Translations under genes and position numbers: made by a program | In this document: one piece after another, positions 3,370 through 31,763 of the stretch | Numbering within the stretch: position 1 is the first letter of the stretch | Layout of the letters: every line of letters starts with the position of its first letter | The notes under the pieces: generated by a model | Database searches by the model: none | Seen by the model: only the letters and a program-made list of their open reading frames with translations | Told to the model about the DNA's origin: nothing | NCBI GenBank assembly: GCA_002868945.1 | Contig: PKTX01000040.1 | Span: forward strand, 58,902-93,664 | DNA: 34,763 nt | Direction: 5' to 3' | Origin: Desulfobulbaceae bacterium | GTDB taxonomy: Bacteria > Desulfobacterota > Desulfobulbia > Desulfobulbales > SURF-16

Positions 3370-3374
3370 GCCGC

Positions 3375-6368: not shown

Positions 6369-6386
6369 ACAATTCAACTCCTTTGC

Positions 6387-9301: not shown

Positions 9302-9348
9302 AATTCCACCCGGCCCCTGTCTGAAGGTTACTCCGCCCTGGTGCCCGG

Positions 9349-11397: not shown

Positions 11398-11408
11398 GTA
11401 CGTTTCTC

Positions 11409-12290
11409 CTACTCGATTACATATGCAAAATTAAGAGGTGTACCGTCCCGCTCGGCATCGACGCTAAGCTGCCTTGCCTCACGCAACTGCTGGAAAATCT
11501 GCAGGGCTTTTTCGGGACTGGTCAGGGACATGCCGTTCACCTGGAGGATGACATCGCCGCGCCGCAAGCCGATTTTATGGAGAATTGAACGGCTCTGCAT
11601 GCTTTTTATGGCAAAACCGCTGGTTTTGCCGGCAATGATACGCGGCTGCAACTGCGCCATGCGCAACTCCTGGGCCAGGTTTTGTCTGGCCATCTCTGCC
11701 GTCTCTCTGGGGATTAACCATTTGTTAGTGTCTATCTCCCGAATCTGGGCTGTCGTCTGCGGCCCGGTGGCGGAAAGATTCGGTCTCCCAGGCGGCGTTG
11801 CCTCAATCGCCAGGGTTGCCGTGGAGCGGTCAGCGTAGCGGATGATAATCAGGTTTCGCTGAATTTCCTCAATATGGCCGCCGTCGGCAAGTTCGTCGCC
11901 AAGAAGGTAAAGGTGGATATCCCGGTCATTACCGACGAGGGCCAGGGATTTGCTGTGGCCGGTCACCGTGCCCAGAAGCGTCAGATTTTGCCGCCGGGAG
12001 GTGGTGGCCAAGGCCTGTTGACGGCCTGAACCGTCACTTTCTGTTCCGGCGGCAACGGCGCTGCCACCGGCCGGATCAAAGATGTTGCGTTGCAGGATCA
12101 GGTTGAGATCGGTGCTTGAGGCGGCGCTCGCCTGGTTTGCACTTTCCGGGAGAGTGTCTCGTTGTGCCGTTGTACCTGATTGAAGAGAAGATTCCAGCAG
12201 GGTTCCAGTTAATATGCCGGCGGAAAGTCCCAGCAGCAAGAGAAGGAGCAGGTTGATCGGAGTAAGGTATTTCTGTAAAAAAGTGAGCAT
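11409..12290 (-). CDS. gspC: Type II secretion system protein GspC
   Basis: GspC connects the inner-membrane platform to the secretin and takes part in substrate choice. The 293-residue protein has an N-terminal membrane segment (about 13-32), a linker, the homology region beginning LILQRNIFDPAG that in the family contacts the N0 domain of GspD, and a C-terminal PDZ domain (KIGLRRGDVILQVNGMSL, about 240-290). It lies 50 bases after gspB and 11 before gspD. The ribosome binding site is modest (ACAGG). Confidence 0.95.
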   Translation of the reverse strand: MLTFLQKYLTPINLLLLLLLGLSAGILTGTLLESSLQSGTTAQRDTLPESANQASAASSTDLNLILQRNIFDPAGGSAVAAGTESDGSGRQQALATTSRRQNLTLLGTVTGHSKSLALVGNDRDIHLYLLGDELADGGHIEEIQRNLIIIRYADRSTATLAIEATPPGRPNLSATGPQTTAQIREIDTNKWLIPRETAEMARQNLAQELRMAQLQPRIIAGKTSGFAIKSMQSRSILHKIGLRRGDVILQVNGMSLTSPEKALQIFQQLREARQLSVDAERDGTPLNFAYVIE

Positions 12291-12340
12291 ATACCTGTGT
12301 CTATGGGGTCTGTTTCTGGAAATAATTTTCCGACACGCAA

Positions 12341-13015
12341 TCAGCCACCCGGTTTGTCAACTTCAAAAAGGAGATCCTGGTAGTCAAAAATGGTGGCTGA
12401 CGGGGTAATGCTGTGAATGGAGAGTCCAATGTCAACAGTTTCACCCTCACGAAAAAAGTGATTGTTGATACGTACCATACGGCGCTCGGGGTTGTCGCTG
12501 AAAAAATGCAGGGATATCTCCAGCGGCGGCAGGGTCTGACGTAGTTGTCGGGGTAGATCCGTGTAAGGGATCGGTTCACCGGCCAGCGGCCCGGCGGCTG
12601 CGGCGGCAGGGGCGGGCTCACGGTTATCTTGCTGGCTGGAGGCGGCAAGCGGCACAGGGGCGGTTGCAAGCCTGATGGGCGCTGTTCCGGTCGGCAGCCG
12701 TGTGGGGGTTGTGGGCGGGGCTGTCTTCGGCGTTTTCCTGCTGCTCTGCTGCTCGGCAGGGCCGGGTGGCGGCTGTTTTTTGACGTCCCGGAATGCAGGG
12801 TCTGCTGTCTCGGACGAGTCTTTTGGTGAGATGGGGCTGCTCCCCAGCCACCATCCGCTGAGCAGGGCAAGGGGAAGGAGCAGGAGAATCGCCCGGGAAG
12901 AACGGCGGCTGTGCTGCTGGGCGCCCAGGTCAAGGACCATCTTGCCGGAGTCCGTCAGCTGTTCCGTGTCACGAAGCTCGTCTGATTTTTTTAAGGCATT
13001 AAGGATAAAGGACAT
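12341..13015 (-). CDS. gspB: Type II secretion assembly protein GspB
   Basis: This 224-residue protein works with ExeA/GspA to place or assemble the secretin across the peptidoglycan. It starts MSFILNALKKSDELR, a conserved GspB opening, has one membrane segment (about 43-58), a Pro/Ala-rich periplasmic linker (about 65-135) and the C-terminal GspB domain (ISLHFFSDNPERRMVRINN, then the REGE motif). The open frame extends 99 codons upstream within exeA, but the conserved opening sets the start at 13015, where ATG shares a base with the exeA stop (TAATG). The linker fits a protein spanning the cell wall. Confidence 0.94.
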   Translation of the reverse strand: MSFILNALKKSDELRDTEQLTDSGKMVLDLGAQQHSRRSSRAILLLLPLALLSGWWLGSSPISPKDSSETADPAFRDVKKQPPPGPAEQQSSRKTPKTAPPTTPTRLPTGTAPIRLATAPVPLAASSQQDNREPAPAAAAAGPLAGEPIPYTDLPRQLRQTLPPLEISLHFFSDNPERRMVRINNHFFREGETVDIGLSIHSITPSATIFDYQDLLFEVDKPGG

Positions 13016-14712
13016 TACTGTACCCCTGAACGGTAAAGGCGCGGGCCGGGAGAGTCGCTTGCCCGCTGGAGATGGATAATGGTTTGCGGACCCAGGGCGC
13101 CGTCCGGAGTCAGTCCGGCCGAGAACTGGAAGCGCTTCAGGGCCGCCAGCAAGGTGCCGTCCAGGCGGCTCTCCGTGCCTGTTTGCCTGTAGAGGCCCAG
13201 TTCGGTGAGCACGGCTGAGAGCCAGACAACATTTCGGCCCTGGCCGCCCGGCAGGAGGACCTGGTCGAATTGGCCACCATTTCGCCAGAGCAGGCGATAT
13301 TCGCCAAACCAACGGCTTTCAATGGCCCTGATGTCCATGTGCCGCTCCTGGTTGCCGGAGATGAAGCGGGCCCGGTTTTCCGTAAGCCCGGCCAGCACCA
13401 CATAAAAGGGGGCGCCGTCATCGTCATAGAGGGTGAGAACCGCCGGCCTGTTATAGCCTCGCAGGGTTTCGAGACTGTCTTGTCTCTCCAGACAACGCAG
13501 TCCGGCATTACTTGCAAACCGGCACGGCACATCAAGTTCCGGCAGGTAGTCGAGCCCCCAGAGGGCGGCAAGATCCGCAAAGGCGTCTTGGGGACTGGTA
13601 CCAAAGGCAAAATCAGCGGGCCAGGCCGTGGCCGGCTCCTGCCCGGTGGTTTGGGGTTCTTCTACCGGTGCGGCGTTGGTGAGCACGGCGCTGGGCTGGG
13701 CGGTTATGCCGGTTCTGTTAAGCGGCAGAAACAGCCAGGCGCTCAGACCGATGATCATCAGCACCCCGGCCATGATGGCGGCCAGCAGGGGGAAGCGTCC
13801 GTTCCGGGCGGGCAGATCAAAGATCTCGCGGTATGCCTGACGGATGATGGCGCCGTCAATACGATCTTTGCGCATGGAGTAGGCACCGAGCAGGGCCCGG
13901 TCGCAGAGGAGATTGATCAGGCGCGGTACCCCTTTGCTCAGACGATGGATGCGCCTGACCATGGCGGGCGGAAACAATAGCCTTTCGCAGCCGGCCACCT
14001 GCAGCCGGTGTTCAATGTAGGCGGCAACCTCCTTTCCGTCGAGAGGCCCCAGGTGGTAACGGGCCGTCAGACGCTGGGCCAGTTGGCGCAGCCGCGGCCC
14101 GTTGATCATGTCGCGCAGTTCGGGCTGGCCCAGCAGGATGATCTGCAGCAGTTTGCGCTGGTCCGTCTCCAGATTGGTCAACAGGCGCAGCTGTTCCAGG
14201 ACATCGGGCGCCAGGTTCTGGGCCTCATCGATGACCAGCACGGTTTTACGGCCTTGGGCGTTGGTTGCCAGCAGGCGGGTATTGAGGCTGTCCACCAGGC
14301 TTTTGATGCCGGCATCGGCGGCAACCGCAATGCCCAGTTCATCGCAGATCGTTTCCAGCAGCTCACTGACATTCACCTTGGGGTTCAGGATAACGGCCAG
14401 GTCGATATGGTCCGGCACCTGTGCAATGAGTTGGCGGCAGATGGTGGTTTTGCCGGTGCCGACCTCGCCGGTGAGCAGGACAAAACCGCCGTCGTTTTTC
14501 AGGCCGTAGAGCAGATGGGCAAGGGCTTCTCTGTGCCGAGCACTCATGTAGAGGTAGCGCGGGTCAGGGGCAATGGAAAAGGGGTGCGCCTTGAGGCCGA
14601 AATAGTCGACGTAGAGGGGGAGCTCCCAGGGATGCCTGGCCATCTTCCTCTGCTGCTGTGTGTCACTGGTTGACATTGTCCGGGCCCCCGCATGTGGTTT
14701 AAAAGAAGTCAT
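13015..14712 (-). CDS. exeA: ExeA/GspA-family AAA ATPase with peptidoglycan-binding domain
   Basis: This is the first gene of the secretion operon. The 565-residue protein opens its conserved part at YVDYFGLKAHPFSIAPDPRY (about residue 34), has Walker A GEVGTGKT (82-89), Walker B VLVIDEAQNL (158-167), a membrane segment (about 303-327) and a periplasmic part ending in a peptidoglycan-binding domain (LAALKRFQFSAGLTPDGALG). In Aeromonas, ExeA with ExeB remodels or binds peptidoglycan for secretin insertion. The start is uncertain: the ATG at 14712 has GGAG only 1-2 bases away, which is too near, while ATGs at 14676 and 14643 lie closer to the conserved part. Confidence 0.94.
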   Translation of the reverse strand: MTSFKPHAGARTMSTSDTQQQRKMARHPWELPLYVDYFGLKAHPFSIAPDPRYLYMSARHREALAHLLYGLKNDGGFVLLTGEVGTGKTTICRQLIAQVPDHIDLAVILNPKVNVSELLETICDELGIAVAADAGIKSLVDSLNTRLLATNAQGRKTVLVIDEAQNLAPDVLEQLRLLTNLETDQRKLLQIILLGQPELRDMINGPRLRQLAQRLTARYHLGPLDGKEVAAYIEHRLQVAGCERLLFPPAMVRRIHRLSKGVPRLINLLCDRALLGAYSMRKDRIDGAIIRQAYREIFDLPARNGRFPLLAAIMAGVLMIIGLSAWLFLPLNRTGITAQPSAVLTNAAPVEEPQTTGQEPATAWPADFAFGTSPQDAFADLAALWGLDYLPELDVPCRFASNAGLRCLERQDSLETLRGYNRPAVLTLYDDDGAPFYVVLAGLTENRARFISGNQERHMDIRAIESRWFGEYRLLWRNGGQFDQVLLPGGQGRNVVWLSAVLTELGLYRQTGTESRLDGTLLAALKRFQFSAGLTPDGALGPQTIIHLQRASDSPGPRLYRSGVQ

Positions 14713-18463: not shown

Positions 18464-19900
18464 CTATGCTCTGAGTTGATACTTGCGGAGGAGGCGATAG
18501 AGCTGCGAGAGGGAGAGTCCGGAGGTATGGCAGGCCTGCTGCATGTTGCCGTCGGTTTGCCGCAAAAGCTCTGTCAGGTACTCGTGCTCAAGCTCCTTGG
18601 TTGCCGCCTTGCGGACGTCCTGCAAGGGCGGCAGGGGCCGGCCCATGGCCCATGGTCTGGAGGGGGTGGCGCCAGGGGACATTCCGGCATGAGCGGGCAC
18701 GGCTGCCGCCGACCTCTGGGGCGGGATAACCTTTCTGCGAAGGTGGGCGCGGATGTCGGCGGACAGGTGGATGTCATAGAGAATGGGTTCGTCGCCGGCC
18801 TGGACAAAGGCGGTGCGGACGGCGTTGAACAGTTCACGGACATTACCGGGCCACTCATGGGCCAGCAGGGTTTCCAGGAAGCCGGGGCACAGGCCTTTGA
18901 TCGGCGTGCCGGCCTGGTGTGCCAGCTCGGCCAGGTGCGTCAGGGTGAGCTCGGCGATGTCCTCACGACGCTGCCGCAAGGGGGGCAGCTCGCAGACCAC
19001 CTCCTGCATGCGGAAAAGCAGGTCCCGGCGAAAGAGGCCGCGTGTCGCCATCTCATCCAGGTTGCGGTTGGTGGCTGCCAGCAGCCGGAAGTCGCTGTTC
19101 ATTTCCCGGGCAGAGCCGATGGGGCGGAAACGCTGCTCCTGAAGGACGCGCAGGAATTTTTTCTGAAGGCCCAGGGGAAGTTCCCCCACCTCGTCAAGAA
19201 AAAGGGTGCCGCGGTGGGCCTGGGCAATGAGGCCGCTACTGGCCTGGTCGGCATTGGTGAAGGAGCCTTTTTCATGGCCGAAGAGGATGCTCTCCGCCAG
19301 GGAGGCAGGCAGGTTGGCGCAGTCGACAATAACGAAATCGTGGCGGGCGCGTTGGCTGTTGTCGTGGATGGTGCGGGCAAAGATCTCCTTGCCGGTGCCG
19401 GTTTCACCGGTGAGCAAGACGGCAACATCGCTTTCAGCCGTCCGTGCGACCAGGTCGAGGCTACGTTCCAGGGCCGGACTCTTACCGATGATGCGGTCGC
19501 GGCGCAGGAGGCGGGGGCCCTGGGCAGCCTTTTTGCCCTGCCGGTACTTGAGGGCCCGGTCCAGGCAAAGCTGCACGTCCTCCAATGACAGGGGTTTGTG
19601 GAGGTAGTCCCAGGCCCCGTTTTTGATGGCCAGTTCAGCGCCGTTAACGGAGCCTTCACCGGTGATGATGATAATTTCCGGAGCGGATGGGCTGCCCTGT
19701 ATACGGCTGATTGTCTCCAGGCCGTTGCCGTCCGGCAGGTAGACATCAAGCAGCACCAGGTCGGGATCATAGGAGGCCAGTGTTGCCAACCCTGCATGCA
19801 GGCGCCCGTCTTTCTCGGCTTGGTGGCCCAGATGAAGTACGAGATCCGCCAGGACATTGCGGGTACCCGGGTCATCGTCAATAATGAGAATGCGCGCCAT
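18464..19900 (-). CDS. NtrC-family sigma-54 response regulator with GSFTNA loop
   Basis: This 478-residue protein has a receiver domain (acidic Asp9/Asp10, phospho-acceptor Asp52 in LVLLDVYLP, Lys102), a sigma-54 AAA+ domain (Walker A GETGTGKE 165-172, Walker B GTLFLDE 231-237) and a C-terminal Fis-type helix-turn-helix (about 433-475). The sigma-54 contact loop, usually GAFTGA, reads GSFTNA (212-217); the key Phe and Thr are kept. The frame opens 42 codons further upstream, but the receiver begins at MARILIIDDD, so I place the start at 19900, overlapping the kinase gene by 23 bases. It is probably phosphorylated by that kinase and probably activates the adjacent sigma-54 promoter. Confidence 0.95.
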   Translation of the reverse strand: MARILIIDDDPGTRNVLADLVLHLGHQAEKDGRLHAGLATLASYDPDLVLLDVYLPDGNGLETISRIQGSPSAPEIIIITGEGSVNGAELAIKNGAWDYLHKPLSLEDVQLCLDRALKYRQGKKAAQGPRLLRRDRIIGKSPALERSLDLVARTAESDVAVLLTGETGTGKEIFARTIHDNSQRARHDFVIVDCANLPASLAESILFGHEKGSFTNADQASSGLIAQAHRGTLFLDEVGELPLGLQKKFLRVLQEQRFRPIGSAREMNSDFRLLAATNRNLDEMATRGLFRRDLLFRMQEVVCELPPLRQRREDIAELTLTHLAELAHQAGTPIKGLCPGFLETLLAHEWPGNVRELFNAVRTAFVQAGDEPILYDIHLSADIRAHLRRKVIPPQRSAAAVPAHAGMSPGATPSRPWAMGRPLPPLQDVRKAATKELEHEYLTELLRQTDGNMQQACHTSGLSLSQLYRLLRKYQLRA

Positions 19901-22640
19901 GGGCTCCGTTTCCTTGGTGTAGTTCCTGGTTGTCGAGAATGCGACGGATGGTGGCGGCAAAGTCGTTGCGGCGCAGAGGTTTGAGCAGCAGGGCGGAGAT
20001 GCCCAGGGCCATGGCTGCTGATTCATCCAGTTTACTGGTATAGCCGGTGCAGAGAATAATGGGCAGATCGCTGCGCAGCTCTTTGACTGCCAGGGCCAGA
20101 TCCGTGCCCTTGAGTTTGGGCATGTTGTAGTCAGTGATCAGCAAGTCGTAGGCGGCGGGCTCTGCCTGCACCATGGCCAGGGCCTCCTGGCCGCCCGGGG
20201 CAGTGGTCACCGTGTAGCCCAGGCTGGTCAGGGTGTCGGCCTCCGCCCGCAGCACGGCCGGATCGTCGTCCACCAGCAACAGGTGTTCGTTGCCGCCCAC
20301 CGGCCGATTCATTTCCGTTGCCATGTCTTCACTGTCAAAACTGAGGCCGGGCAGCAGCACCTCAATGGTGGTGCCTTTGCCCGGCGTACTGTGCACCTGG
20401 ATGACGCCGCCGTGCCTGGTAATGATGCCGTGTACCACAGAGAGGCCCATGCCGGTGCCGTGGCCTTTCTCCTTGGTGGTGAAAAAGGGGTCAAAGAGTC
20501 GGGGGATGTTGTCCGGCGCAATGCCGCAACCGGTGTCAATGACGCTGAGCTTCAGCCAGGTCCCTGGGGATTGCGGGTCCGGGCGGTGATCAGGCGGCGC
20601 TTTGCTTTCTTCAAGACGGATGGTCAGTTCGCCCTGCTGCTCACCGATGGCGTGCATGGCATTGATGCCGAGATTCATGATCACCTGCAGCAGTTGGGTG
20701 GGGTCTGCCAGCAGGCCGTCATGTTCCGTGTTGATTTCCTGTTTGATGGTGATGTTGGCCGGCATGGAGGTCTTGAAAAACTTTATGGCCTCCTTGATGA
20801 TGGGCGTGAAGTTGGCCGGTTGTGCTTCATGCTTGCCCTGGTGGCTGAAGTCGAGGATCTGCCTGACCAGGGCGGCGGCTCGGTCGGCGGCCTTGCTCAC
20901 CTGGAGAAGGCGATTGGCGACAGGGTTGTCCGGCTCCATATCCTGCAGGGCAAGTTGGGTGTGCATCATGATCGGGGTCAGGATGTTGTTGAAATCATGG
21001 GCGATGCCGCTGGCCAGGAGTCCCATGGCCGCCATTTTGTCGGCCTGCAGCTCCCGGGCCTCCATCGCTTTGCGTTCGCTGATATCCTGGATGGTGCCAT
21101 GCATGCGCATGGCTGCACCGGCATCATCCCGCACTACTTCGCCTTTTTCGTAAACCCAGGCCTGGCTGCCGTCGGCCCGTATCACCCGGTGTTCAATAGC
21201 ATAGTCCTGATCCTCTTGCAGGGCCTGCTCCACTGCTTCCTGCAGGGCCTGGCGGTCTTTGTCGGGCAGAAGCTCCAGAAAGGCGTCGTAGGTGGGGGTG
21301 AATTGCTGCGGGGTGACGCCGAAGATGCGATACGCCTCGTCGGACCAGGAAAGGCGGCCGCTGGCGATGTCCCACTCCCAGCTGCCCAGTTTGGCAATAC
21401 GCTGTGCCACCAAGAGGTTGGCATGGCTGCGGGCCAGGGCCTCTTCCATGCGGGCGCGTTCGCTGATGTCGCGTACCATGGCCAGAATGTATTGCCGGCC
21501 CTGGTGTTCAAAGTAGTTGGCACTGATCTCCACAGGAAAAGTGCGGCCCTGCCGGGTGCGATGATGGCTGGTAAAGAGCAGCGAGCCTTGGCGGTGCACC
21601 TGCTGCCAATGGCTGTGCCAGGTGGCGGCGTCCATGTCCCGGTCAACGTCGAGCACCCCCATGCCGAGCAGTTCCGGCCGTTCATAGTCCAGGGCACGGC
21701 AGGCGCCCAGGTTGACATAATGAAATCTGCTGTGCCGATCAATGAGGTAGGCGGCCTCCTCCACATTGTCCAGGGCATAATCCAGCAGGGATATCTGCTG
21801 CTGGGCCTCCTCCAGTTCCACATAGGGTTGTTTGATGTTCTCCAGAAAGATGGCGCGGTAGATGAGAAGATAGGCCAGTACCTTATAAACATGGCCGAGA
21901 AGGTTGAAGCTGTCCGAGGCGTATCTGTACATGGTGAAGAAAAGTTCACTTCCAACCAGCAAAACCAGGGCCGGGGCCAGGTAGCGCCGCAGGGCGGTGG
22001 GCAGGTAGCGGCCTTGGCCGAAGAGGAGGGCCAGGGTGGCCAGATGGATAAAAATCACCAGCCATTCCAGGATAAGCTTGAGAGGAGTAAGGCCCCGGTC
22101 CACCTCGTAGGTGGCGGGCAGCCGGTCCGGCATATAGACGCCGAGATAGGCCCACAACAGGGAATAGGCCAGGCAGGCCGCCAGGATAAAATGGCGCGGC
22201 GGCCGCGGCCTGGTCATCCAACCGGGCAGCCATGGCGCCGGTATACTGTAGAACAGAAGGGCGATTGCCGCTAAAAAGCGGGCCGCCAACCAGAGAACAA
22301 TGCCTTTGTGGGTGGTGTTGGGGGTGATGAAATCCGTCATGCCCGGATAGGAGAGGGCGTGCAGAAAGTCGAGGAAGCCGACGCCGACAAAGGCGCAGGC
22401 CAGGAAGATTGAGCCAAGGGGTTGGCCCTTGGTCAGGGTGTGGTAGCCTGATGAAAAGATCAACAGGGCCACCACTGTGGCAAATATTTCTATGGCACTG
22501 TGCAGGACCAGAAAGGTTGGTTGCGCCATGATAACCGGGATGGTCACCAGGCCGCTCCAGGCCGTCAGGGCCAGGGCCGAGAGCAGGATGAGCGCCGCCG
22601 GACCGCCGGCTGTCATGAGATTATGGAGGGAAAATTTCAA
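19878..22640 (-). CDS. MASE3-PAS-PAS hybrid sensor histidine kinase
   Basis: This is a membrane-bound hybrid kinase of 920 residues. The first 265 residues form a multi-helix MASE3-like sensor (SGLVTIPVIMAQPTFLVLHS, then FLDFLHALSYPGM). Two PAS domains follow (about 285-395 and 405-520), then HisKA with His548 in SGIAHDFNNILTP, an ATPase domain (NLGINAMHAI; DTGCGIAPD; GTGMGLSVV) and a C-terminal receiver with Asp837. The start is weak: a TTG at 22640 with an in-frame stop just upstream, or an ATG at 22616. The gene overlaps the NtrC-type regulator by 23 bases, so the two form a pair. MASE3 domains are of unknown ligand. Confidence 0.93.
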   Translation of the reverse strand: MKFSLHNLMTAGGPAALILLSALALTAWSGLVTIPVIMAQPTFLVLHSAIEIFATVVALLIFSSGYHTLTKGQPLGSIFLACAFVGVGFLDFLHALSYPGMTDFITPNTTHKGIVLWLAARFLAAIALLFYSIPAPWLPGWMTRPRPPRHFILAACLAYSLLWAYLGVYMPDRLPATYEVDRGLTPLKLILEWLVIFIHLATLALLFGQGRYLPTALRRYLAPALVLLVGSELFFTMYRYASDSFNLLGHVYKVLAYLLIYRAIFLENIKQPYVELEEAQQQISLLDYALDNVEEAAYLIDRHSRFHYVNLGACRALDYERPELLGMGVLDVDRDMDAATWHSHWQQVHRQGSLLFTSHHRTRQGRTFPVEISANYFEHQGRQYILAMVRDISERARMEEALARSHANLLVAQRIAKLGSWEWDIASGRLSWSDEAYRIFGVTPQQFTPTYDAFLELLPDKDRQALQEAVEQALQEDQDYAIEHRVIRADGSQAWVYEKGEVVRDDAGAAMRMHGTIQDISERKAMEARELQADKMAAMGLLASGIAHDFNNILTPIMMHTQLALQDMEPDNPVANRLLQVSKAADRAAALVRQILDFSHQGKHEAQPANFTPIIKEAIKFFKTSMPANITIKQEINTEHDGLLADPTQLLQVIMNLGINAMHAIGEQQGELTIRLEESKAPPDHRPDPQSPGTWLKLSVIDTGCGIAPDNIPRLFDPFFTTKEKGHGTGMGLSVVHGIITRHGGVIQVHSTPGKGTTIEVLLPGLSFDSEDMATEMNRPVGGNEHLLLVDDDPAVLRAEADTLTSLGYTVTTAPGGQEALAMVQAEPAAYDLLITDYNMPKLKGTDLALAVKELRSDLPIILCTGYTSKLDESAAMALGISALLLKPLRRNDFAATIRRILDNQELHQGNGAHGAHSHY

Positions 22641-22972: not shown

Positions 22973-23449
22973 TCAGGAGGTTCTGAAGCGTTGGCAAAGG
23001 GTGTAGTGTTGCAGGTGGCGACTGAAGAAGAGGAGCGGCACGGCAATCATGACATTGCGCAGGATGAGAACAAGGGCGGGGGTGGCGGCGTCGCCGGCGC
23101 CGAAGCAGCCGCAGTAAATGGGCAGCAGAAGATAGCCTTGGGAGGCCAGGGCGATGGCGCCGCTGAAGAGCAGGTAGATGGCGGCCAGCAACCAGGCCAT
23201 TTTTCTGGCCTGCCAGCCGTAGAGGGCGATGGTGCCGATGATGAGTTCAACAGGGACCTGCCAGCGGTCAATGGCCAGCACGACCTGGAAGGGGAGTATT
23301 TCGAGCTCATAGAGGCTGAGCAGCAGTTCGCTGAGCTCCGGTTTATTCCACACTTTCAGCAGGCCGGCCACCAGGAGCAGCAGGGCGGCCAGATAATAAT
23401 CCGCCACCAAAAGGCGCTCATACCAGGCAAGACGGCCCGCTGCTCTCAT
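22973..23449 (-). CDS. MauE/DoxX-like redox-associated membrane protein
   Basis: This 158-residue integral membrane protein has four hydrophobic helices and the MauE-family pattern: [20 protein letters not shown] near the N-terminus and a CGCFG motif (113-117). In methylamine utilisation, MauE is needed for disulfide formation in the enzyme subunit; relatives are thought to pass electrons or disulfides across the membrane. Its ATG overlaps the stop of the preceding chemoreceptor (ATGA), so the two are translationally coupled. An exported rhodanese lies first in the same set. This suggests thiol or sulfane-sulfur chemistry. The exact substrate is unknown. Confidence 0.85.
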
Positions 23450-24924
23450 GAATACTCCGGCAGGGGGGCTGCTTCCTGCCGCTGGACAGGGGGTTTACCT
23501 TCCCAGAAGATAATGAGTTGGTCCACCAACCTGTTGAGGGCGGCCACCTGATCGGTGATCTCGTGGACCGTGGCAGCCCCTTCTTCGGACATGGCGGCCA
23601 GGGATTGCACGGAAGAGTCAATGGTGGCAATGGCCTGGTTGACCTGGTCAAGGTTGTCCGACTGTTCGCTGGAGTTGCTGATGATTTTCACCATCTGCTC
23701 GGCCACGGTAGTGCTTGACTCATGTACCCGTGGAAAGGTGTTCTCCAGGGCCGTGACCACCTTCTCGCCCTGGTGGATCTTGGTGTCCAGACGACCGATC
23801 AGGTCGCCGACGTTCTGGGCCGCCACCGTGGCGCGACCGGCCAGACTGCGCACCTCGTCGGCCACCACGGCAAAGCCGGCGCCGGCCTCACCGGCCCGGG
23901 CCGCTTCCACGGCGGCATTCAAGGCGAGCAGGTTGGTTTGGAAGGCGATTTCTTCAATGTCGCGCACCAGCGATGAGATCTGTTTGTCCGCCTCAATCAT
24001 CTCCGCCATGGCGGCCACCACATCCTTGATAGCCTTGTCCGACTCGGCGGCGGTCTGCAGAACCTCTTTGGTGGAATCCTCGGCGCTGCGCGCCACATCG
24101 AGGTTGTCCCTGGCCCTGCCTGCCATGTGGCCGGAGGTGGAGCTTATCTCGTCAAGATTGGTGGCGGACGAGGAGGAGGCAATGCTCAGTTGATTGGTCA
24201 TGTCGTTGATGTAGCTCATGGAGGTGAGCAGCGAGGTGGCCACGGTGGCCGATTCCTCCGACATGTTGGCCAGGTGTCTCGACATGTTGGAGATCAGCCA
24301 GAAACAGGTGATACCGATAACGGACAGCAGGATAAAGGCAATGGTCATGGTGGTGGTCAAGCGACCGAAGACGTGGAGGATATGGCCCATGCTGCTCTGG
24401 TGCAGGTTGGAGCTGCTCTCCACCATCTCCCTGAGGGTGGTGAGCATCAAGAGGTTGTGGGCGTCAAACTCCCGGCTGAGATCGCCCTCCATGGCAAAGT
24501 CCATGTCAATGGAGGCCCTGACCATCCGCGTCCCCGTCTCATAGGAGGCCTGGTAGGCCTGCTGCAGCAGGGGGGCGCTCTCGACTATCTTTTTGTCGGC
24601 ACTGGCCCGGCACAGGGGAGCCAGTTCGGCCAGCAACTCTTCCACCCGCTTGTTCAGGGGGTCGATCTCGCTGAGACGGGAGGTGCTGGCCGCCGCCTTG
24701 GCAACATTGAACTTTTCCACCACCTGGCCGATGAGGCCTTCCATCTCAATGGCGAGCTTGGTGAGGGGATAGATCTGATCGCTCACCGTTTCCACGTCCT
24801 TCCTCAGTGTGTTGATGGAGTAGAGGGCAAAAAGGATCAGAAAGGAGGAAAGCGCCCCCAACAGGAGAAAGGTGAGGTAGAGGCGGTACTTGTTGCCAAG
24901 GTTTTTGATGGCGGAAGTGTTCAT
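23446..24924 (-). CDS. Methyl-accepting chemotaxis protein with four-helix-type sensor
   Basis: This 492-residue chemoreceptor has a first membrane helix (about 15-37), an all-helical periplasmic region (about 38-188) that looks like a four-helix-bundle sensor, a second helix (about 190-213) and a cytoplasmic signalling domain. The tip motif is [20 protein letters not shown]. The sensor holds a single Cys (in LAPLCRAS, about residue 104). No CheR-binding pentapeptide is seen at the end (PLPEYS). The ribosome binding site is weak. It lies 68 bases after the rhodanese gene and overlaps the MauE-like gene, an unusual place for a chemoreceptor that suggests a linked redox or sulfur signal. Confidence 0.94.
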
Positions 24925-24992
24925 ATGCAGCTCAACGTTATAGGGAAGGCAGATCCCTTTGATGTGACCATTGCAGGTGAGGAGGCCAGGCG

Positions 24993-25724
24993 TTACTTGG
25001 TCACCGGCAGGCCGGCCCGAATCCAGGCAGCCACGCCGCCGTCCATGACCGCGACATCGTTATAGCCCTTCATGGCCAGAAATTTGGCGGTGACCACCAC
25101 CTGTTTGGCGGCATGGTCGACAACGACGATTTTCTTGTCGCGGGGCAGGGCGGTATACTTTTCCTGGAGGTTGTCCAGAACGATCTCCGTGGCACCGTTG
25201 ATCCGGCCCAGTTGTTTATGCTTGGCGCCGCGGATGTCGAGGATGACAATGGAGTCCCGCATGCCGTGCACCTGGTTCGGGGAGAGACGGCTTACCTCAA
25301 TGGCGGGGTATGCCACGTTCTTTGCCAGGGGATAGCGGTGTTTGGCCCAGGCAGGCAGGCCTTCATTGTAGACCATGACGTTGCTGTAACCAAGTTGTAC
25401 CGCCTTGCCGGCGGCAATGCGACTCTTGCCGCACTTGGGGCCCTTGCAATAGAAAATAAGCAGGGTGCCCTTGTCGGCCGGCAGGTTGGCGTTGCCCGCC
25501 ACCTGGCTGGCCGGAATACTGACCGACCCCTTAATGGAGAGCTCATCATGTTCAATGGGGCTGAGGGCATCGGCCAGGACAAGCTGCTCACCGGCATCCA
25601 TTTTGGCCTTGAGCTCGGCGGTGGAGATAAAGGGAATATCCCCGGCCAGGACCGGGTGAGCGGTGAAGACAAGGAACAGGATGCAAAGGACAAGGCGAGG
25701 CAGGGTGAAGATCTGTTTGAGCAT
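24993..25724 (-). CDS. Exported tandem rhodanese-domain protein
   Basis: After a signal peptide ([20 protein letters not shown], cleavage likely after HPVLA) the 243-residue protein has two rhodanese domains. Domain 1 (about 30-135) keeps the active-site Cys93 in [10 protein letters not shown], with Cys98 five residues on. In domain 2 (about 145-240) the catalytic position in [11 protein letters not shown] is Asp203, so that half is likely inactive. Rhodaneses move sulfane sulfur between thiols, and this one should act in the periplasm. The frame opens 31 codons upstream, but GAGGAG lies 8 bases before the ATG at 25724 and the signal peptide begins there. It is the first gene of a set with a chemoreceptor and a MauE-like protein. 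Confidence 0.92.
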
Positions 25725-25788
25725 GTGTTTCTCCTCTCTGGGGGGTATGGGTTTGCTGGGAAAAAGAGGGGGGTAACTACTGTTAATC

Positions 25789-25817
25789 AGTTTAGGGTTG
25801 AATGTCCGGGGATGCAA
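25789..25817 (-). promoter_or_regulatory. Candidate sigma-70 promoter of the rhodanese-chemoreceptor-mauE set
   Basis: On the minus strand TTGCAT (25817-25812) is followed after 17 bases by TAAACT (25794-25789). Both hexamers are imperfect, which would suit an activator-dependent promoter. The start would be near 25782, about 58 bases before the ATG. Confidence 0.4.
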
Positions 25818-25902: not shown

Positions 25903-26526
25903 TCAACGCTCAAGAAGGCGGCTGATGGTTTCCAGGGAGAGCTCCACCTCGTTTCTCTCGTCAATGTCCTGGGGGCAGATGATAAAGAGATAAAAAGGCG
26001 TGGAGCTGATCATGAATTTGCGCACCACGGCCTTGTCTGCGTAATTGATGTCCATGGAGATGTTGTTGGCCTCGTGCTGGTCGAGAAAATGGCTGGCCTG
26101 GGCAATGGCGCCGCCGAGAACCGTGGCAAAGGCGGCCAGAACATCGGTCTCCACCGGGCTGTTGAAATCAGCCAGGGCCAGGCCCTGGTCATCGGCAATA
26201 ATGGCGCTGCTGAAACCGCCGCGCTGGCAGAGGATCTTCAGGGCGTTTTCCAGTTTTTCCTCGGTGTGGCCCTGTTCCAGAGGGAGGGGAGCGGTTTGCG
26301 TTGGTACGGTTTGGTGGCCCAGGTGTTCCGCTGTCGGTCGGGCCGGGCCGGCGGCCGGATCGGCAAAAGGAGCCGGGAAGAGGGACTGCTCTCCGGCAAG
26401 AGTGCTGCGCTCTGTCGGCTGCGGTACCTCGAAGGTAAGGTAGTCGGCAAGGCCTCCCGGCGGCAGAAGTTCTTGCAGGAGGGCGTGGCATTCCGTTATT
26501 TCAAAAGAGTCTTTCAGGTTGGGCAT
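25903..26526 (-). CDS. Roadblock/LC7-like protein with long N-terminal linker
   Basis: This 207-residue soluble protein has a short N-terminal segment (about 1-35), a Pro/Ala/Thr-rich probably disordered linker (about 36-85) and a C-terminal domain (about 88-205) resembling Roadblock/LC7 folds: KILCQRGGFSSAIIADDQGL followed by two helices and a strand. Roadblock proteins commonly regulate small GTPases (MglB on MglA) or act as scaffolds. It overlaps the ParA-like gene by 26 bases, and an AGGAAAC ribosome binding site lies within it. It is the last gene of the five-gene cluster. The N-terminal segment may be a docking peptide for the ParA-like ATPase, which is inference. Confidence 0.75.
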   Translation of the reverse strand: MPNLKDSFEITECHALLQELLPPGGLADYLTFEVPQPTERSTLAGEQSLFPAPFADPAAGPARPTAEHLGHQTVPTQTAPLPLEQGHTEEKLENALKILCQRGGFSSAIIADDQGLALADFNSPVETDVLAAFATVLGGAIAQASHFLDQHEANNISMDINYADKAVVRKFMISSTPFYLFIICPQDIDERNEVELSLETISRLLER

Positions 26527-27310
26527 GATTGTTTCCTGCTGATTGGCCGGCGGTGAGGCGGTTGATAACCTCCTCTGCCAACTGGTCGTAAAGGTGGTTC
26601 ATCTCCCTGGTCTGACCCAGGAGCTGAATGGCGCTAGCGTGGGCGGCTGCCCTTTCAAACTGGTGGGAGCGCGGCATAATGGTTGAAAAAAAGAGGCCCT
26701 GGGTAAAGGTGGTGCGCATGGCAGCCAGGGTGTCGATTTCATAGGGGTTCTGCTTGTCGAAATGGCTGGCCAGGATACCGAGCAGATGCAGCTCGGGGTT
26801 GAGTTTCTTGCGGACGCGGACCATGAGCCGCAACAGACCGGGCAGCGTCCTGACGGCATTGGCATGGCACGGCAGGACCAACAGGAGGGTGTGGCTGGCG
26901 GCAAAGGCCATGGCGCTCATGGCCTCGATGCCGCTTGGTGTGTCCAGCAGAACATAGTCATAGTCCTCGGCCAGTGAGCGGATAAGGGGCAGCAGGCCCC
27001 CTTTTCTGGCCTGCTGCTCCAGAAAAAAGGCGTCAGTCGGCTGTTTGACGCCGTTGCCGAGCAGGGCCAGGGGGAGTGCCAGGCTGCTCTCGATAATGGC
27101 TTGGTTCGGTGCGCAGCCCTTCATGATCTGCACCAGTCCGGCCTGTGTACCGGCCGGCAGGCCGGCTGCGGCCGCAACAGCCCCCAGGGGGTCGGTGTCC
27201 ACCAGCAGTACCCGGTGGCCCCGGCGCGCCAGGCTGATGCCCAGATTCATGGTGGTGGAGCTCTTTCCGGCACCTCCCTGGTGCCCTGCAATACTGATTA
27301 TGGTAGCCAC
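26501..27310 (-). CDS. ParA/MinD-family ATPase lacking the signature lysine
   Basis: This 269-residue ATPase has the deviant Walker A loop GHQGGAGKSS (9-18), an A' motif VLLVDTDPLG (about 34-43) and Walker B DYVLLDTPSG (about 98-107). In ParA/MinD proteins the P-loop begins with a signature Lys (KGGxGKT). Here that position is Gln11, while the catalytic Lys16 is kept. The carboxysome-positioning ATPase McdA is a known case with a changed signature lysine. The start is a GTG with AGGAG 5 bases upstream, inside the end of the preceding response regulator gene. No ParB or plasmid partition site is nearby, so a role in placing a protein complex fits better than DNA partition. Confidence 0.88.
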   Translation of the reverse strand: MATIISIAGHQGGAGKSSTTMNLGISLARRGHRVLLVDTDPLGAVAAAAGLPAGTQAGLVQIMKGCAPNQAIIESSLALPLALLGNGVKQPTDAFFLEQQARKGGLLPLIRSLAEDYDYVLLDTPSGIEAMSAMAFAASHTLLLVLPCHANAVRTLPGLLRLMVRVRKKLNPELHLLGILASHFDKQNPYEIDTLAAMRTTFTQGLFFSTIMPRSHQFERAAAHASAIQLLGQTREMNHLYDQLAEEVINRLTAGQSAGNNHAQPERLF

Positions 27311-27312
27311 TG

Positions 27313-28269
27313 TTACTCCTGTGTCCTGTTTTTTGGTCCGGCATCTTCAGATGCGGCCTGGTAGTCGATAATCCCACGGGCCCGGGCCGTTGCAACCAGG
27401 GTCACGTTGTCCGGCAGATCGCCCGGCATGCTCGTCAGGAGGTCGAAGAGGGCCATGGGAAAGGCGTCGGCAACGGCCTGGATGGCGGGGAAATCCGTAG
27501 CCTCGCCTGTCAGCCTGACCACCATGTTGTCCGGCCCCAGTTGCCGGGCCCTTTCCCTGAACTCGTCGGCCTGGCTGACGCTGTAGAGCAGCAGGTGTTC
27601 AATGGTGGAGTTCTCTTCGCTTGCTGTTTCATCAAGGATGTCATAGCGGGCCAGAAAGGTGCCGTGTTGCCGTAAAATGAGTCTGATCAGGGCCTGCCTG
27701 CCGCGAAAGCGACCTTGCCGAATGCGGACAATGGCTCCTGCTTTGATGGCAATCTCGCCTGCCATCTCCGGAAAAGTAATGGTACATGTCTTGGCGGCCA
27801 GCGCCATGCCCTGCAGCAGTTCCGCCAGGCCAACCGCCTCTATACGGCCCTGCATGGTGCCGGGCGGCACGGCGGCCGGTTTCCGGGCGCGGCGCAGCAC
27901 TGCCTTGATCCGGGCGGTGAGTTCGGCACTGTCAAAGGGCTTGGTGATATAATCATCACCACCCCCTTCAAGGCCTTTGATCTTCAAGTATTGGCGATTG
28001 AGGCTGCTGAGGAAGATCACCGGGATATCCGCCAGGCCGGTCTTGGCCCGCAACGAGGTCAGGGTCTGAAAGCCGTCCATGCCCGGCATGTTGATGTCGA
28101 GAATAATCAGGTCAACAGGGGTGGTGGCGGCAATCTCCAGGGCCTCCTGGCCGCTGTAGGCGTGCAGGACCGCGTAGCCGCTGAGTTTGAGTTGATGTTC
28201 GAGGATGAGATGCTGGCCCTCGTCATCGTCAATTATCAGTATCTGGGTGGTTGTCACTGCCTGCCTCAT
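27313..28269 (-). CDS. Response regulator with DUF4388 (PatA-like) output
   Basis: This 318-residue protein has an N-terminal receiver (Asp14/Asp15, phospho-acceptor Asp58 in LIILDINMPGMDG, Lys110) and a C-terminal DUF4388 domain (about 139-235: MQGRIEAVGLAELLQGMALA, then GAIVRIRQGRFRG), then a helical tail. DUF4388 domains occur in gliding and chemosensory regulators and have no known DNA-binding role. The frame opens 70 codons upstream, but the receiver sets the start at ATG 28269; a GTG at 28257 with GAGG 6 bases upstream is a good alternative. Two bases separate its stop from the ParA-like gene. The HPt hybrid kinase across the divergent promoter is a natural phosphodonor. Confidence 0.9.
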   Translation of the reverse strand: MRQAVTTTQILIIDDDEGQHLILEHQLKLSGYAVLHAYSGQEALEIAATTPVDLIILDINMPGMDGFQTLTSLRAKTGLADIPVIFLSSLNRQYLKIKGLEGGGDDYITKPFDSAELTARIKAVLRRARKPAAVPPGTMQGRIEAVGLAELLQGMALAAKTCTITFPEMAGEIAIKAGAIVRIRQGRFRGRQALIRLILRQHGTFLARYDILDETASEENSTIEHLLLYSVSQADEFRERARQLGPDNMVVRLTGEATDFPAIQAVADAFPMALFDLLTSMPGDLPDNVTLVATARARGIIDYQAASEDAGPKNRTQE

Positions 28270-28360
28270 GTGTGACCTGGTGCGCATGGAAGATGCTGAT
28301 AGACGGCCCGGTGTGACCCTCGACCTGTACGAAGCAACGTCGCGCCGGTCGGGCCCCTGT

Positions 28361-29107
28361 TTACGGGATGGGGTAGCTGTCACCCAGCCGATCAAAGCCG
28401 CATTCCAGGCTGTCAACCCAGTCAATGAAGCGCTGAACCATCTCCGGCCCGGCAAAAACACCGCCGTGTTGAGGAGCAATGGTGTCGATTTCCAGCTGGC
28501 GCACGGTGTTGACCCACATCTTCAGCGGTTTGGTGCCGGGCATATAGCGGTGATGGAAGCCCTCCATGAATTGAATATGGTGGTCAAAATCTTCGACAAA
28601 CTGATTTTTGCCGCCCACGGAGGCCCCCAGGTCGCCGCTGTAGAGGATCCTGGCCTGCGGATCATATACCTGGAAGTTGCCCGGCGAGTGCAGGAAGTGG
28701 GCCGGTATCAGTTTCAGTTCACAGCCGCCCAGGTTGACGGCCAGACCATCGTCCGGGATAGGTGTTATTTGGTTGAGCACCATCTTGTCCACACCGAAAT
28801 GGGTGATAAAGCGCATCCAGATCTCCGGCAGGAGGCCGCGGGCCGATGTGGTCATCAGCCAGCCGTTGGCGGCGGCGATGATGTCTGGGTCCTGGTGGGA
28901 GAAGAATATATACTTGAGATTGTTGATGGAGGTCAGGGAGGTGATTTCCGTAAAAAGCTTGGTGAAAATCTTGTGGCCACCGGGATCAAGGAGCATGGCC
29001 TCGTTGTTGTGGACGATAATGTGCTGGTTGCTGTCAACCATATGGGCAAAGGAGAGGTCGTTGACGCAGATGTTTTTGTGACCGTCGGCTTCATAGAGAG
29101 TGTACAT
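28361..29107 (-). CDS. ODP-like diiron metallo-beta-lactamase-fold protein
   Basis: This 248-residue protein is a stand-alone metallo-beta-lactamase domain of the flavodiiron type. All six metal ligands can be placed: His71, Asp73 and Asp75 in SHQDPDI, His140 in HFLHSPGNF, Asp159 in YSGDLG and His214 in PQHG. It lacks the flavodoxin domain of FprA enzymes and has no membrane segment. Its closest described role is the oxygen-binding diiron protein (ODP) of Treponema denticola, which signals O2 to the chemotaxis machinery. Here it sits between a Roadblock protein and a response regulator, so an O2 sensor is more likely than an O2 or NO reductase. GGAG lies 6 bases before the ATG. Confidence 0.85.
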   Translation of the reverse strand: MYTLYEADGHKNICVNDLSFAHMVDSNQHIIVHNNEAMLLDPGGHKIFTKLFTEITSLTSINNLKYIFFSHQDPDIIAAANGWLMTTSARGLLPEIWMRFITHFGVDKMVLNQITPIPDDGLAVNLGGCELKLIPAHFLHSPGNFQVYDPQARILYSGDLGASVGGKNQFVEDFDHHIQFMEGFHHRYMPGTKPLKMWVNTVRQLEIDTIAPQHGGVFAGPEMVQRFIDWVDSLECGFDRLGDSYPIP

Positions 29108-29175
29108 GGCAGCTCCGAAAGTGGCATGGGTGAGTAAAGGGCAATGTTAAGGCGGGAAGGGAGGAGAAAGGGGGC

Positions 29176-29544
29176 TTAGGCAATGATCTCCGCCAGTTCC
29201 CGGGCTGCCCTGGACATGTCGAGAAAGATGAGGCCCAGCTTGGCCTCTTTCCTGGTCAGGGCCACCAGCACGGCATGGGGGCCGGCGTGAGACATGATGA
29301 TATAGCCCTCCTTGCCCTTGACAAAGAGTTGCTCAAGGTCCTTTTTGTTGAGTTCCGTACAGATTCTGACTCCCATGGATATCATCACGGAGCTGATGGC
29401 GGCCACATGATCTTCATCCATGCCCTGGGGCAGGGCGCTGGCAATAATCAGACCGTCCTCGGTAACAACGGCGCATGCCTCGATGTCGGCGGACGTGGCC
29501 TTCAGATTGCTTAAGGATTGATTCAGCTGGTCGGTCCTGGTCAT
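29176..29544 (-). CDS. Roadblock/LC7 domain protein (MglB-like)
   Basis: This 122-residue single-domain Roadblock/LC7 protein carries ADIEACAVVTEDGLIIASALP and the helix-strand pattern of MglB-type proteins. In the family such proteins form dimers that regulate Ras-like GTPases or serve as scaffolds. No MglA-type GTPase lies in the window. It is the first gene of the five-gene cluster, with AAGGAGA 5 bases before the ATG, and is divergent from the HPt hybrid kinase. The next gene, 68 bases on, is the diiron ODP-like protein. I infer that it is a partner or scaffold in the same sensory module. Confidence 0.92.
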   Translation of the reverse strand: MTRTDQLNQSLSNLKATSADIEACAVVTEDGLIIASALPQGMDEDHVAAISSVMISMGVRICTELNKKDLEQLFVKGKEGYIIMSHAGPHAVLVALTRKEAKLGLIFLDMSRAARELAEIIA

Positions 29545-29723
29545 ACTCTTCTCCTTGAAATGGTAGGCAACATTTGCTAATAATTATTCTTATCATGTAA
29601 CGTGAAAAAAAATGAAATTTCAAGAGGAAATGTAGCCTCTTCGGCGCGTGCGACAAAATGCCGCGCTTGCTGAAGGGGAAGAGGGGGTCTGCTGTGTCAC
29701 GTCAGGAACAAGGGGGCAAAATA
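29545..29723. promoter_or_regulatory. Divergent promoter region between Roadblock cluster and hybrid kinase
   Basis: This AT-rich region must hold promoters in both directions. On the minus strand TTGAAA (about 29622-29617) is five of six to the -35 consensus, but the hexamer 17 bases on (TTACAT) is a poor -10. A short inverted repeat AAGAGG-N8-CCTCTT lies at about 29621-29640. I see no clear activator site. Confidence 0.35.
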
Positions 29724-31763
29724 ATGGTTGCGGCTGATAACCGCGAGGCGGCCGGCCTGGTTGCCGAGCATACCGCCCTGCCTTTGGCCTTGGTGCGGCA
29801 GGGAGATATCGTCTGGGTAAACCGCGCTCTGGCGGATCTCTTTGCCTGCCGGCGCCGCGATCTGCTTGGCCGAAAGTGGCACGACTTTCGGATGTCCGTC
29901 TTTGCCGGTGAGATCGGCATCAGTGTCGAAGGGGTCAGCTACTGTCTGCGGCTTCGTAACTGCCGGGGCGTGCACTTCTGGGCTGATTTCTCCGGCAGTC
30001 CGGTTGATGAGGAAGACCCGGAGGCCGGCGAGGTCTGGACCATTCGTGATATTACCGTGCAGAAAGAGGCGGCAGACGCCCTGCAGCTGGCCAAGGAGGC
30101 GGCGGATCAGGCCACTCGGGCCAAGGGTGAATTCCTGGCCAATATGAGTCATGAGATCCGCACTCCCATGCATGTGATTGTCGGCATGACCGGTCTGGTG
30201 CTGGAAGGGGAGATGGCTGCGCAGCAGCGCTCCTACCTGCGCCACATCAAGGAATCGGCCCACTCTCTGCTGGGTTTGCTCAACGATATCCTCGACTATT
30301 CCAAGGTGGAAAGCGGTGGCATGGACTTGGAGCAGGCGCCCTTTGCCTTTGATGAGCTGGTCAGCGGTGTGGTGGAAAGTTTCAGGCATTCCGCCGCGGA
30401 AAAAGGTCTTTTCCTGAAGGGAGAGGTCGCCTGCCGGACCTGTGCCCTGCCGGTGGGTGACGCCCTGCGTCTCAGACAGGTTCTGGTCAATCTGGTGAGT
30501 AATGCCGTCAAGTTTACCGGCAGGGGCGGCGTGACCATCAGGGCGACCCTGAAAGAGGAGAGCGCTGACCGGCTGCAGGCCACCTTTGCCGTCCATGATA
30601 CCGGCATTGGTATTGCCGAAGATAAAAGGGAGCGGATCTTTGCCGACTTTGTGCAGGCGGACAGTTCAACGTCGCGACACTATGGCGGCACCGGTCTTGG
30701 CTTGGCCATCTGCCGGCAGTTGGTGGCGCTGATGGGCGGCATAATCGAGGTGGAGAGCAGCCAGGGCTGCGGCAGTATCTTTTCCTGTACCATGCCTCTG
30801 GCCCGGCAGCGGCCGGGTCGGGGGAGGTCTGCCGTGGCCGGCAGGGCCGTGCATCACGGCGCTGTCAGCCGCCCTGCCGAGCCCAGGGCCATTTTGCTGG
30901 CCGAGGATCATCCGGCCAATCAGGAGCTGGCCCTGGCCATTCTGGAGCAAGCCGGTCACCAGATCACCCTGGTCGACAACGGACTGCAGGTCTTGGCAAA
31001 GCTGGCGGAGCAGGATTTTGATCATATCCTCATGGACATGCAGATGCCGGAGCTGGACGGCCTGACCACCAGTCGATATATCCGTTCCCTTGAGCAGGGC
31101 AAGCCGGTCAGCCTGCCTGCCGGGGTCGTCGGTCTGCATGATATCCTGGCGCGGCGCCTGACCGGTGCTCATAACCATATCATCGCCATGACCGCGGATG
31201 CCATGCCGGAGCAGAAGCAGCGATCTTTGGCCGCCGGTATTGATCACTACCTGGTCAAACCGTATGAGAAGGAGGTTCTGCTCGCCATGGTCGCCGATCG
31301 TCCTGATCGGGAGCGGCCGGCCCGGTCGGCGGTGCTGCCTGGTTGCGGCCTGGCAAAGGTATGGCGGCATCAGGTGTGGGACAATGTGGCCCGCGCCTTT
31401 GGCATGAACGAGGAAAAAACCAGCAAGGTGGTGGATACCTATGGTCGTTCACTGCTGAAAAACTTTGTTCATCTGGACCAGGCCCTCTCCACGGGGAATT
31501 ATCAGGAAATCGAGTATCATGCCCACTCCATCAAGGGTGCCTTCTTGAACCTGGGCCTGCCGGCCTTTGCCGAGCTTGCCGGAGATATGGAAAGACGGGC
31601 GGCCGGCCAGGATGACAGGGGGTTTGGGGAAATGACGGCCGCCATGCTGGACAATCTCCAGCCCTATCTGGCGGAATTCCCCGAGTTTGTCGACTACCGG
31701 CCCCGATTTTCCGGGGTGCGCCGTGCCGGTTCCGGGCCGGACGGTGCCGACCAGGTCGGCTGA
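29724..31763 (+). CDS. Cytoplasmic PAS-hybrid histidine kinase with HPt domain
   Basis: No membrane segment is seen. From MVAADNREA the 679 residues hold a PAS domain (about 14-115), HisKA with His143 in NMSHEIRTPM, an ATPase domain (NLVSNAVKFTG; DTGIGIAED; GGTGLGLAIC), a receiver with Asp438 in ILMDMQMPELDG, and an HPt domain with His601 (HSIKGAFLNLG). This is a complete His-Asp-His phosphorelay in one chain. The receiver has an insertion of about 25 residues (456-482) before its fourth strand. The frame opens at 29658, but that ATG has no ribosome binding site; ATG 29724 has AAGGGGG 7-8 bases upstream and GTG 29694 is also plausible. Its phospho-target may be the DUF4388 response regulator. 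Confidence 0.92.
   Translation: MVAADNREAAGLVAEHTALPLALVRQGDIVWVNRALADLFACRRRDLLGRKWHDFRMSVFAGEIGISVEGVSYCLRLRNCRGVHFWADFSGSPVDEEDPEAGEVWTIRDITVQKEAADALQLAKEAADQATRAKGEFLANMSHEIRTPMHVIVGMTGLVLEGEMAAQQRSYLRHIKESAHSLLGLLNDILDYSKVESGGMDLEQAPFAFDELVSGVVESFRHSAAEKGLFLKGEVACRTCALPVGDALRLRQVLVNLVSNAVKFTGRGGVTIRATLKEESADRLQATFAVHDTGIGIAEDKRERIFADFVQADSSTSRHYGGTGLGLAICRQLVALMGGIIEVESSQGCGSIFSCTMPLARQRPGRGRSAVAGRAVHHGAVSRPAEPRAILLAEDHPANQELALAILEQAGHQITLVDNGLQVLAKLAEQDFDHILMDMQMPELDGLTTSRYIRSLEQGKPVSLPAGVVGLHDILARRLTGAHNHIIAMTADAMPEQKQRSLAAGIDHYLVKPYEKEVLLAMVADRPDRERPARSAVLPGCGLAKVWRHQVWDNVARAFGMNEEKTSKVVDTYGRSLLKNFVHLDQALSTGNYQEIEYHAHSIKGAFLNLGLPAFAELAGDMERRAAGQDDRGFGEMTAAMLDNLQPYLAEFPEFVDYRPRFSGVRRAGSGPDGADQVG

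Follow-up and report, generated by a model that had tools for sequence, protein, structure and literature searches.

Related systems

The oxygen-binding diiron protein (ODP) of Treponema and Thermotoga (Muok et al. 2019; PDB 6qrq, 6qnm) is reportedly the oxygen sensor of chemotaxis. A role as O2 sensor for chemotaxis is documented for the Treponema denticola protein (PMC7666581), and ODP genes were previously known in operons with various signalling genes (PMC7319448). The conservons of Streptomyces (CvnA-D), which are actinobacterial G-protein systems, each encode a kinase together with a P-loop NTPase and a Roadblock protein of MglB type in a single operon, some of them with a soluble accessory sensor, and one conservon, Cvn8, controls gene expression (PMC8510531, PMC13343842). 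In Myxococcus, the MglA/MglB/RomR polarity system joins a Roadblock protein to a receiver regulator and an NTPase switch, and in the eukaryotic Rag GTPase-Ragulator (LAMTOR) complex an NTPase with a C-terminal Roadblock domain meets separate Roadblock proteins. Cyanobacterial regulators such as PixG, PilG and TaxP2 (REC-PATAN) contain a receiver and a PATAN-type domain.

We analysed a stretch of 34,763 nt from a Desulfobulbaceae bacterium (the window, whose numbering is used for coordinates unless another locus is named) that holds a five-gene cassette resembling each of these systems in part. Its ODP is like the Treponema and Thermotoga proteins in family, metal-ligand residues, stand-alone form and location in a signalling operon, but their partners are a chemoreceptor and CheA, whereas the constant partners of the cassette ODP are Roadblock, REC-DUF4388 and ParA proteins. 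The nearest logic is that of the conservons and of MglA/MglB. However, conservons have a Ras-like GTPase and a CvnC of a different domain where the cassette, which occurs in other phyla, has a ParA ATPase, a second Roadblock protein, the ODP and the REC-DUF4388 regulator; neither a CvnC-type protein nor a Ras-like CvnD GTPase was among the Pfam matches of the cassette proteins. Relative to the Mgl module, whose MglB is close in fold to the second Roadblock protein, the cassette has an ATPase instead of MglA, and both the ODP and a kinase are built in. The absence of MglA, remarked on in the earlier note, holds for the cluster but not for the genome, which carries an MglB-like/MglA pair elsewhere (L102). 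The Rag-Ragulator complex recalls, as an analogy of layout only, the ParA-Roadblock fusions described below, its NTPase class being unrelated, and the cyanobacterial regulators have the domain order of REC-DUF4388 reversed. In its logic the cassette is like a Roadblock-NTPase switch, but it fits no named system: it has neither the Ras-like GTPase and CvnC that a conservon requires, nor the MglA of an Mgl module, nor the ParB of a partition system. The earlier note knew of no described system with this exact set, and in the open-licence literature we likewise found none for Roadblock with ParA or for DUF4388 with Roadblock. The cassette is real and conserved, and it is undescribed in the open-licence literature searched.

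Organization of the locus

The cassette occupies 25903-29544 of the minus strand; its genes run Robl1, ODP, REC-DUF4388, ParA, Robl2 (Table 1), with gaps of 68 nt between Robl1 and ODP, 91 nt between ODP and REC-DUF4388 and 2 nt between REC-DUF4388 and ParA. The ORFs bear out the place and order that had been read from the letters alone, and Pfam matches and fold comparison bear out the families. All members of the proposed five-gene set are present, but the unit is wider than that: the histidine kinase probably belongs to it, and so, often, does another REC-DUF4388(-TPR) protein. Promoter and terminator scans returned matches at no more than chance level.

Table 1. Features of the cassette and of the adjoining kinase gene in the window.
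Feature	Positions	Strand	Evidence
Robl1, Roadblock/LC7 protein, 122 aa, ODP partner	29176..29544	-	PF03259 4.3e-17 (62 bits)
ODP, stand-alone oxygen-binding-diiron-type metallo-beta-lactamase-fold protein, 248 aa	28361..29107	-	PF19583 2.6e-70
REC-DUF4388 (PATAN-like) response regulator	27313..28269	-	PF00072 6e-28, PF14332 2.5e-5
ParA-superfamily ATPase, GTG start, signature lysine replaced by Q11	26501..27310	-	PF13614 5.3e-24
Robl2, 207 aa: N-terminal helix, Pro-rich linker, divergent C-terminal Roadblock domain	25903..26526	-	AlphaFold
ParA 3' end overlapping Robl2 5' end in another frame, 26 nt	26501..26526	-	
Divergent hybrid histidine kinase PAS-HisKA-HATPase-REC-Hpt, probable phosphodonor	29658..31763	+	Pfam

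Several other genes of the window are of signalling or secretion type. Downstream of Robl2, a chemoreceptor with an MCP signalling domain and a double rhodanese are encoded at 23446-25817 (minus strand); neither is conserved beside the cassette in other loci. Further along the same strand, at 18464-22640, the ORFs of a MASE3-PAS-kinase-REC hybrid histidine kinase and of a sigma-54 NtrC-type regulator have about 150 nt in common. A type II secretion operon on the minus strand at 552-14712 encodes GspN, GspL, GspF, GspE with MshEN, GspD and GspC, together with a GspA-like ATPase with a peptidoglycan-binding domain. This operon, 11 kb away, was dropped as a candidate target of the cassette because it is not conserved beside it.

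Conservation and distribution

The cassette recurs in Desulfobacterota, Myxococcota and Acidobacteriota. An ODP scan of 84,980 species genomes led to 14 loci, six of which (L001, L003-L007; Deltaproteobacteria/Desulfobacterota, Myxococcota and Thermoanaerobaculia) have the full set, while the short contig L002 carries Robl1, ODP and the beginning of the kinase gene. Searching genomes with a profile of Robl2 brought in L039 and L040 from the window's phylum, L094 and L096 from the phylum of L007, and L097 from the phylum of L005, the last with partial synteny and its ODP on another short contig. Among 395 genomes sampled evenly from the same phylum, strong Robl2 matches (>200 bits) and strong ODP matches (>440 bits) fell in the identical four genomes and in none besides (hypergeometric probability about 1e-7 with the window's own genome left out, the genomes being not fully independent). 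Gene order in related genomes, on which the earlier note had staked its proposal beforehand, is conserved far beyond chance, which supports reading the genes as one conserved unit that includes an O2/diiron-type sensor.

The cassette is rare and patchy, present in about 1% of the window's phylum, which suggests that it has spread horizontally. Its composition also varies. A relative from the same family as the window (L016/L045) has only Robl1, ODP and a ParA-Robl2 fusion, suggesting that these form a minimal core, and the G011 locus is without REC-DUF4388. A single transcript is not universal, since L006 and L007 encode Robl1-ODP on one strand and the ParA block on the other. G509 has a second, divergent Robl1-ODP-REC-DUF4388-ParA set (L105) followed by a protein of Robl2 layout with a marginal profile score. 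An apparent degraded cassette was seen at L093 2589-4960, where a truncated Robl1 is close to Robl2 and a REC-DUF4388-type gene and the stretch from ODP to ParA is missing. We also observed similar extracellular solute-binding proteins (SBP_bac_11) in or near two independent loci, at L001 8963-9934 and L042 2791-3756.

The diiron-type protein

The window ODP matches the solved oxygen-binding diiron proteins 6qrq/6qnm (phmmer, 1.7e-62), and its HxDxD...H...D...H metal site aligns with theirs. Across 22 homologues no change is seen at the ligand positions H71, D73, D75, H137, D159 and H214, and Pfam finds no flavodoxin domain beside the stand-alone MBL domain. An O2 step in cassette signalling is likely, with O2 as the presumed ligand by homology to these ODPs. 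The L039 cassette is flanked by cydAB (cytochrome bd) and rubrerythrin, and genes for a flavodiiron protein and a multihaem cytochrome are nearby; a protoglobin gene follows the L097 block.

In a tree of ODPs, those of 12 of the 13 full cassettes and one from a Robl1-HTH case form one group with support of 83/91, which is short of firm; the thirteenth, from L105, is in another group. ODPs that adjoin chemoreceptors in the window's phylum (L120, L123) group away from the cassette ODPs. In a different ODP clade (L121 5644-7288, L122 5719-7487), the genes for the ODP and for a 274-aa DUF4388 protein form a divergent pair, which makes the link between ODP and DUF4388 wider than the cassette.

Roadblock proteins and the ParA-type ATPase

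Robl1 is a Roadblock protein by its Pfam match (Table 1), and the orthologues that adjoin ODP in cassette loci are 56-66% identical. For Robl2 the Pfam Roadblock match (E = 0.025) is not confident. Its AlphaFold model, built with seven homologues, has a helix at the N-terminus followed by a Pro-rich, disordered linker and, at 88-206, a predicted domain that is clearly of Roadblock fold, with VIA Z-scores of 18.4 to 3kye, a Streptomyces Roadblock domain, and 17.7 to M. xanthus MglB.

Robl2 is closely tied to ParA. In 12/12 unfused loci the two genes share 20-29 nt in different frames, and in four others (L016, L041, L042, L043) they encode one protein; so far as gene arrangement can tell, a Roadblock-ParA link is well supported. 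DUF4388-Roadblock fusions were found beside the ParA-Robl2 fusion in L042 and L043 and beside an MglA-type GTPase in L044. At L044 6358-8768, L046 7171-8696 and L047 3660-5186, such a GTPase occurs with two Roadblock proteins and takes the ParA place, the DUF4388-Roadblock protein of L044 being additional. Other Robl2 domains adjoin Robl1-ODP on different proteins: in L095 an HTH_17-Robl2 fusion (Robl2 profile, E = 1.1e-32) directly follows the pair, and in L010, L098 and L109 a Robl2 relative near it has a hydrophobic N-terminus, read as a membrane anchor. From these DNA-binding and membrane-anchored forms, the Robl2 domain looks like an exchangeable receiver of a Robl1-ODP signal that is carried on different effectors, and the simplest reading of Robl1-ODP is as a sensor unit. 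Genomes G403, G269 and G201 have ParA-Robl2 fusions and no such ODP anywhere, which suggests that ParA-Robl2 can serve other sensors. In L041, L042 and L043, whose genomes have no close ODP, the fusion adjoins a protein of about 205 aa, the L042 copy of which has no Pfam match; this set is apparently a separate, undescribed module.

ParA belongs to the superfamily by its AAA_31 match (Table 1) and by similarity to T. thermophilus Soj (1wcv, 3.9e-25), and it reached the cut-off of no NCBIfam subfamily. Positioning by ParA/MinD proteins depends on the signature lysine of the deviant Walker A motif. The window ParA reads HQGGAGKS against the signature KGGxGK[ST], so that this lysine is absent (Q11). 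Among 16 aligned ParAs it is kept in 14, the window and L016 having Q, and both lysines are kept in 13; in L003 the P-loop lysine is replaced by Q and D40 is also lost. Some cassette ParAs may therefore lack a normal ATP-driven dimer cycle, to judge from these residues, and the losses weaken the classical gradient-positioning model for the window's own locus. No ParB is next to ParA in the cassette loci, the next gene being Robl2. A conserved C-terminal LF of ParA was set aside as a binding motif because it lies within the Robl2 overlap and is inseparable from the overlap constraint.

Response regulator and kinases

The DUF4388 match of the window regulator, whose start (ATG 28269) was picked by alignment, is 24.7 bits, 0.3 bits below the Pfam cut-off, and the second REC-DUF4388 copies of L004 and L006 have DUF4388 above it. 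The phosphorylatable D58 and K110 are invariant in an alignment of relatives. Its structure model has two folded domains, the Foldseek and VIA matches are taken up by receivers, and Pfam recognises no DNA-binding domain.

The hybrid kinase gene begins 113 nt from Robl1, with 29724 as a possible alternative start. We count it into the unit, of which it is probably a part, because an orthologue that matches over its full length (35% over 670 aa, 4e-108) is found upstream of Robl1 in L001, the closest relative. In L003, L004, L006, L039, L094 and others, a large kinase stands between ODP and REC-DUF4388 or adjoins the latter; where scanned, it combines PAS, HisKA and HATPase with two domains of HD type. 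Several loci also have a REC-DUF4388-TPR protein after Robl2. The window cassette has neither of these, and has the divergent hybrid kinase instead.

Proposed mechanism and alternatives

We consider it probable that the cassette signals in response to O2 or redox state, its Roadblock proteins linking a diiron sensor and a phosphorelay with a ParA-type ATPase. The signal would pass from O2 or redox state through ODP/Robl1, together with the phosphorelay, to Robl2 and on to ParA. ODP would bind O2 at its diiron site, as its homologues suggest, and act via its constant partner Robl1, which would engage the Roadblock domain of Robl2. Robl2, physically tied to ParA, would in turn set the nucleotide or partner state of the ATPase, and the histidine kinase would phosphorylate REC-DUF4388, thereby tuning the same complex or carrying an output. 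O2 as the ligand, the Robl1-Robl2 contact and the direction of signalling are predictions; the observed basis consists of linkage, domain identity, the ParA-Robl2 and DUF4388-Roadblock fusions, and the intact metal ligands and receiver.

Other readings of the same genes differ in what ParA and ODP do. The O2 state could control a ParA gradient that places cargo such as pilus machines or receptor arrays, as superfamily membership, the retention of both lysines in most aligned ParAs and the MglA found in the ParA place of related loci would allow; the helix and disordered linker of Robl2 are also frequent in ParA partners. We regard this as rather unlikely, given the replaced lysines of the window, L016 and L003, the lack of a conserved cargo gene and a ParA with no ParB beside it. 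It corresponds to the positioning or polarity role proposed in the earlier note, against which it also counts that genes for arrays, poles or motility do not recur next to the cassette. Less likely still is that Robl1-ODP regulates transcription through proteins with a Robl2 domain, ParA being nucleoid-bound: the HTH_17-Robl2 fusion of L095 and the precedent of Cvn8 speak for it, but a DNA-binding output occurs in one locus only and REC-DUF4388 has no recognised DNA-binding domain.

It is improbable that ODP is an enzyme or scavenger that consumes O2 or NO, with the remaining cassette genes serving unrelated signalling. Its fold is common to flavodiiron proteins and O2-defence genes lie near the L039 cassette, but it lacks the flavodoxin domain seen in the protein at L039:1470-2660, and Robl1 and signalling genes adjoin nearly every member of its clade. 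We give very little weight to the view that Robl1 and Robl2 act on an MglA encoded elsewhere, with ParA a bystander. The MglB-like/MglA pair at C77 (L102) offers such a target, but that MglA has its own adjoining Roadblock protein, and in 16/16 loci tested ParA and Robl2 either overlap or are fused.

Output and implications

Within the coupling of diiron sensor and phosphorelay to ParA that we favor, the most likely output is surface motility by type IV pili, a candidate we put forward with reserve and by analogy. DUF4388 is what we take to be the PATAN domain. In Synechocystis, PATAN-type regulators bind the pilus motor PilB (PMC10519157), and it is on this analogy that pili are suggested. 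PilT was found in 13/14 carrier genomes and was missing from a single 1.2-Mb genome, which is probably partial. Because many members of the carrier phyla have PilT, its presence is weak evidence for a pilus output. Flagellin is present in 6/14 carriers and absent from 8/14, so flagella cannot be the general target; the window's own genome has both PilT and flagellin.

More broadly, and tentatively, the cassette could represent a new class of bacterial signalling switch in which Roadblock heterocomplexes read a diiron O2 sensor and drive a ParA-class ATPase, with exchangeable outputs (ParA, DNA-binding or membrane-anchored Robl2), an ATP-based counterpart of conservons, MglAB and Rag-Ragulator. 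The conserved pairing of Roadblock and ParA, down to gene fusion, would add ParA ATPases to the partners of Roadblock proteins, and the cassette, a compact gene set with a testable signal, would add a use of diiron O2 sensors outside chemoreceptors.
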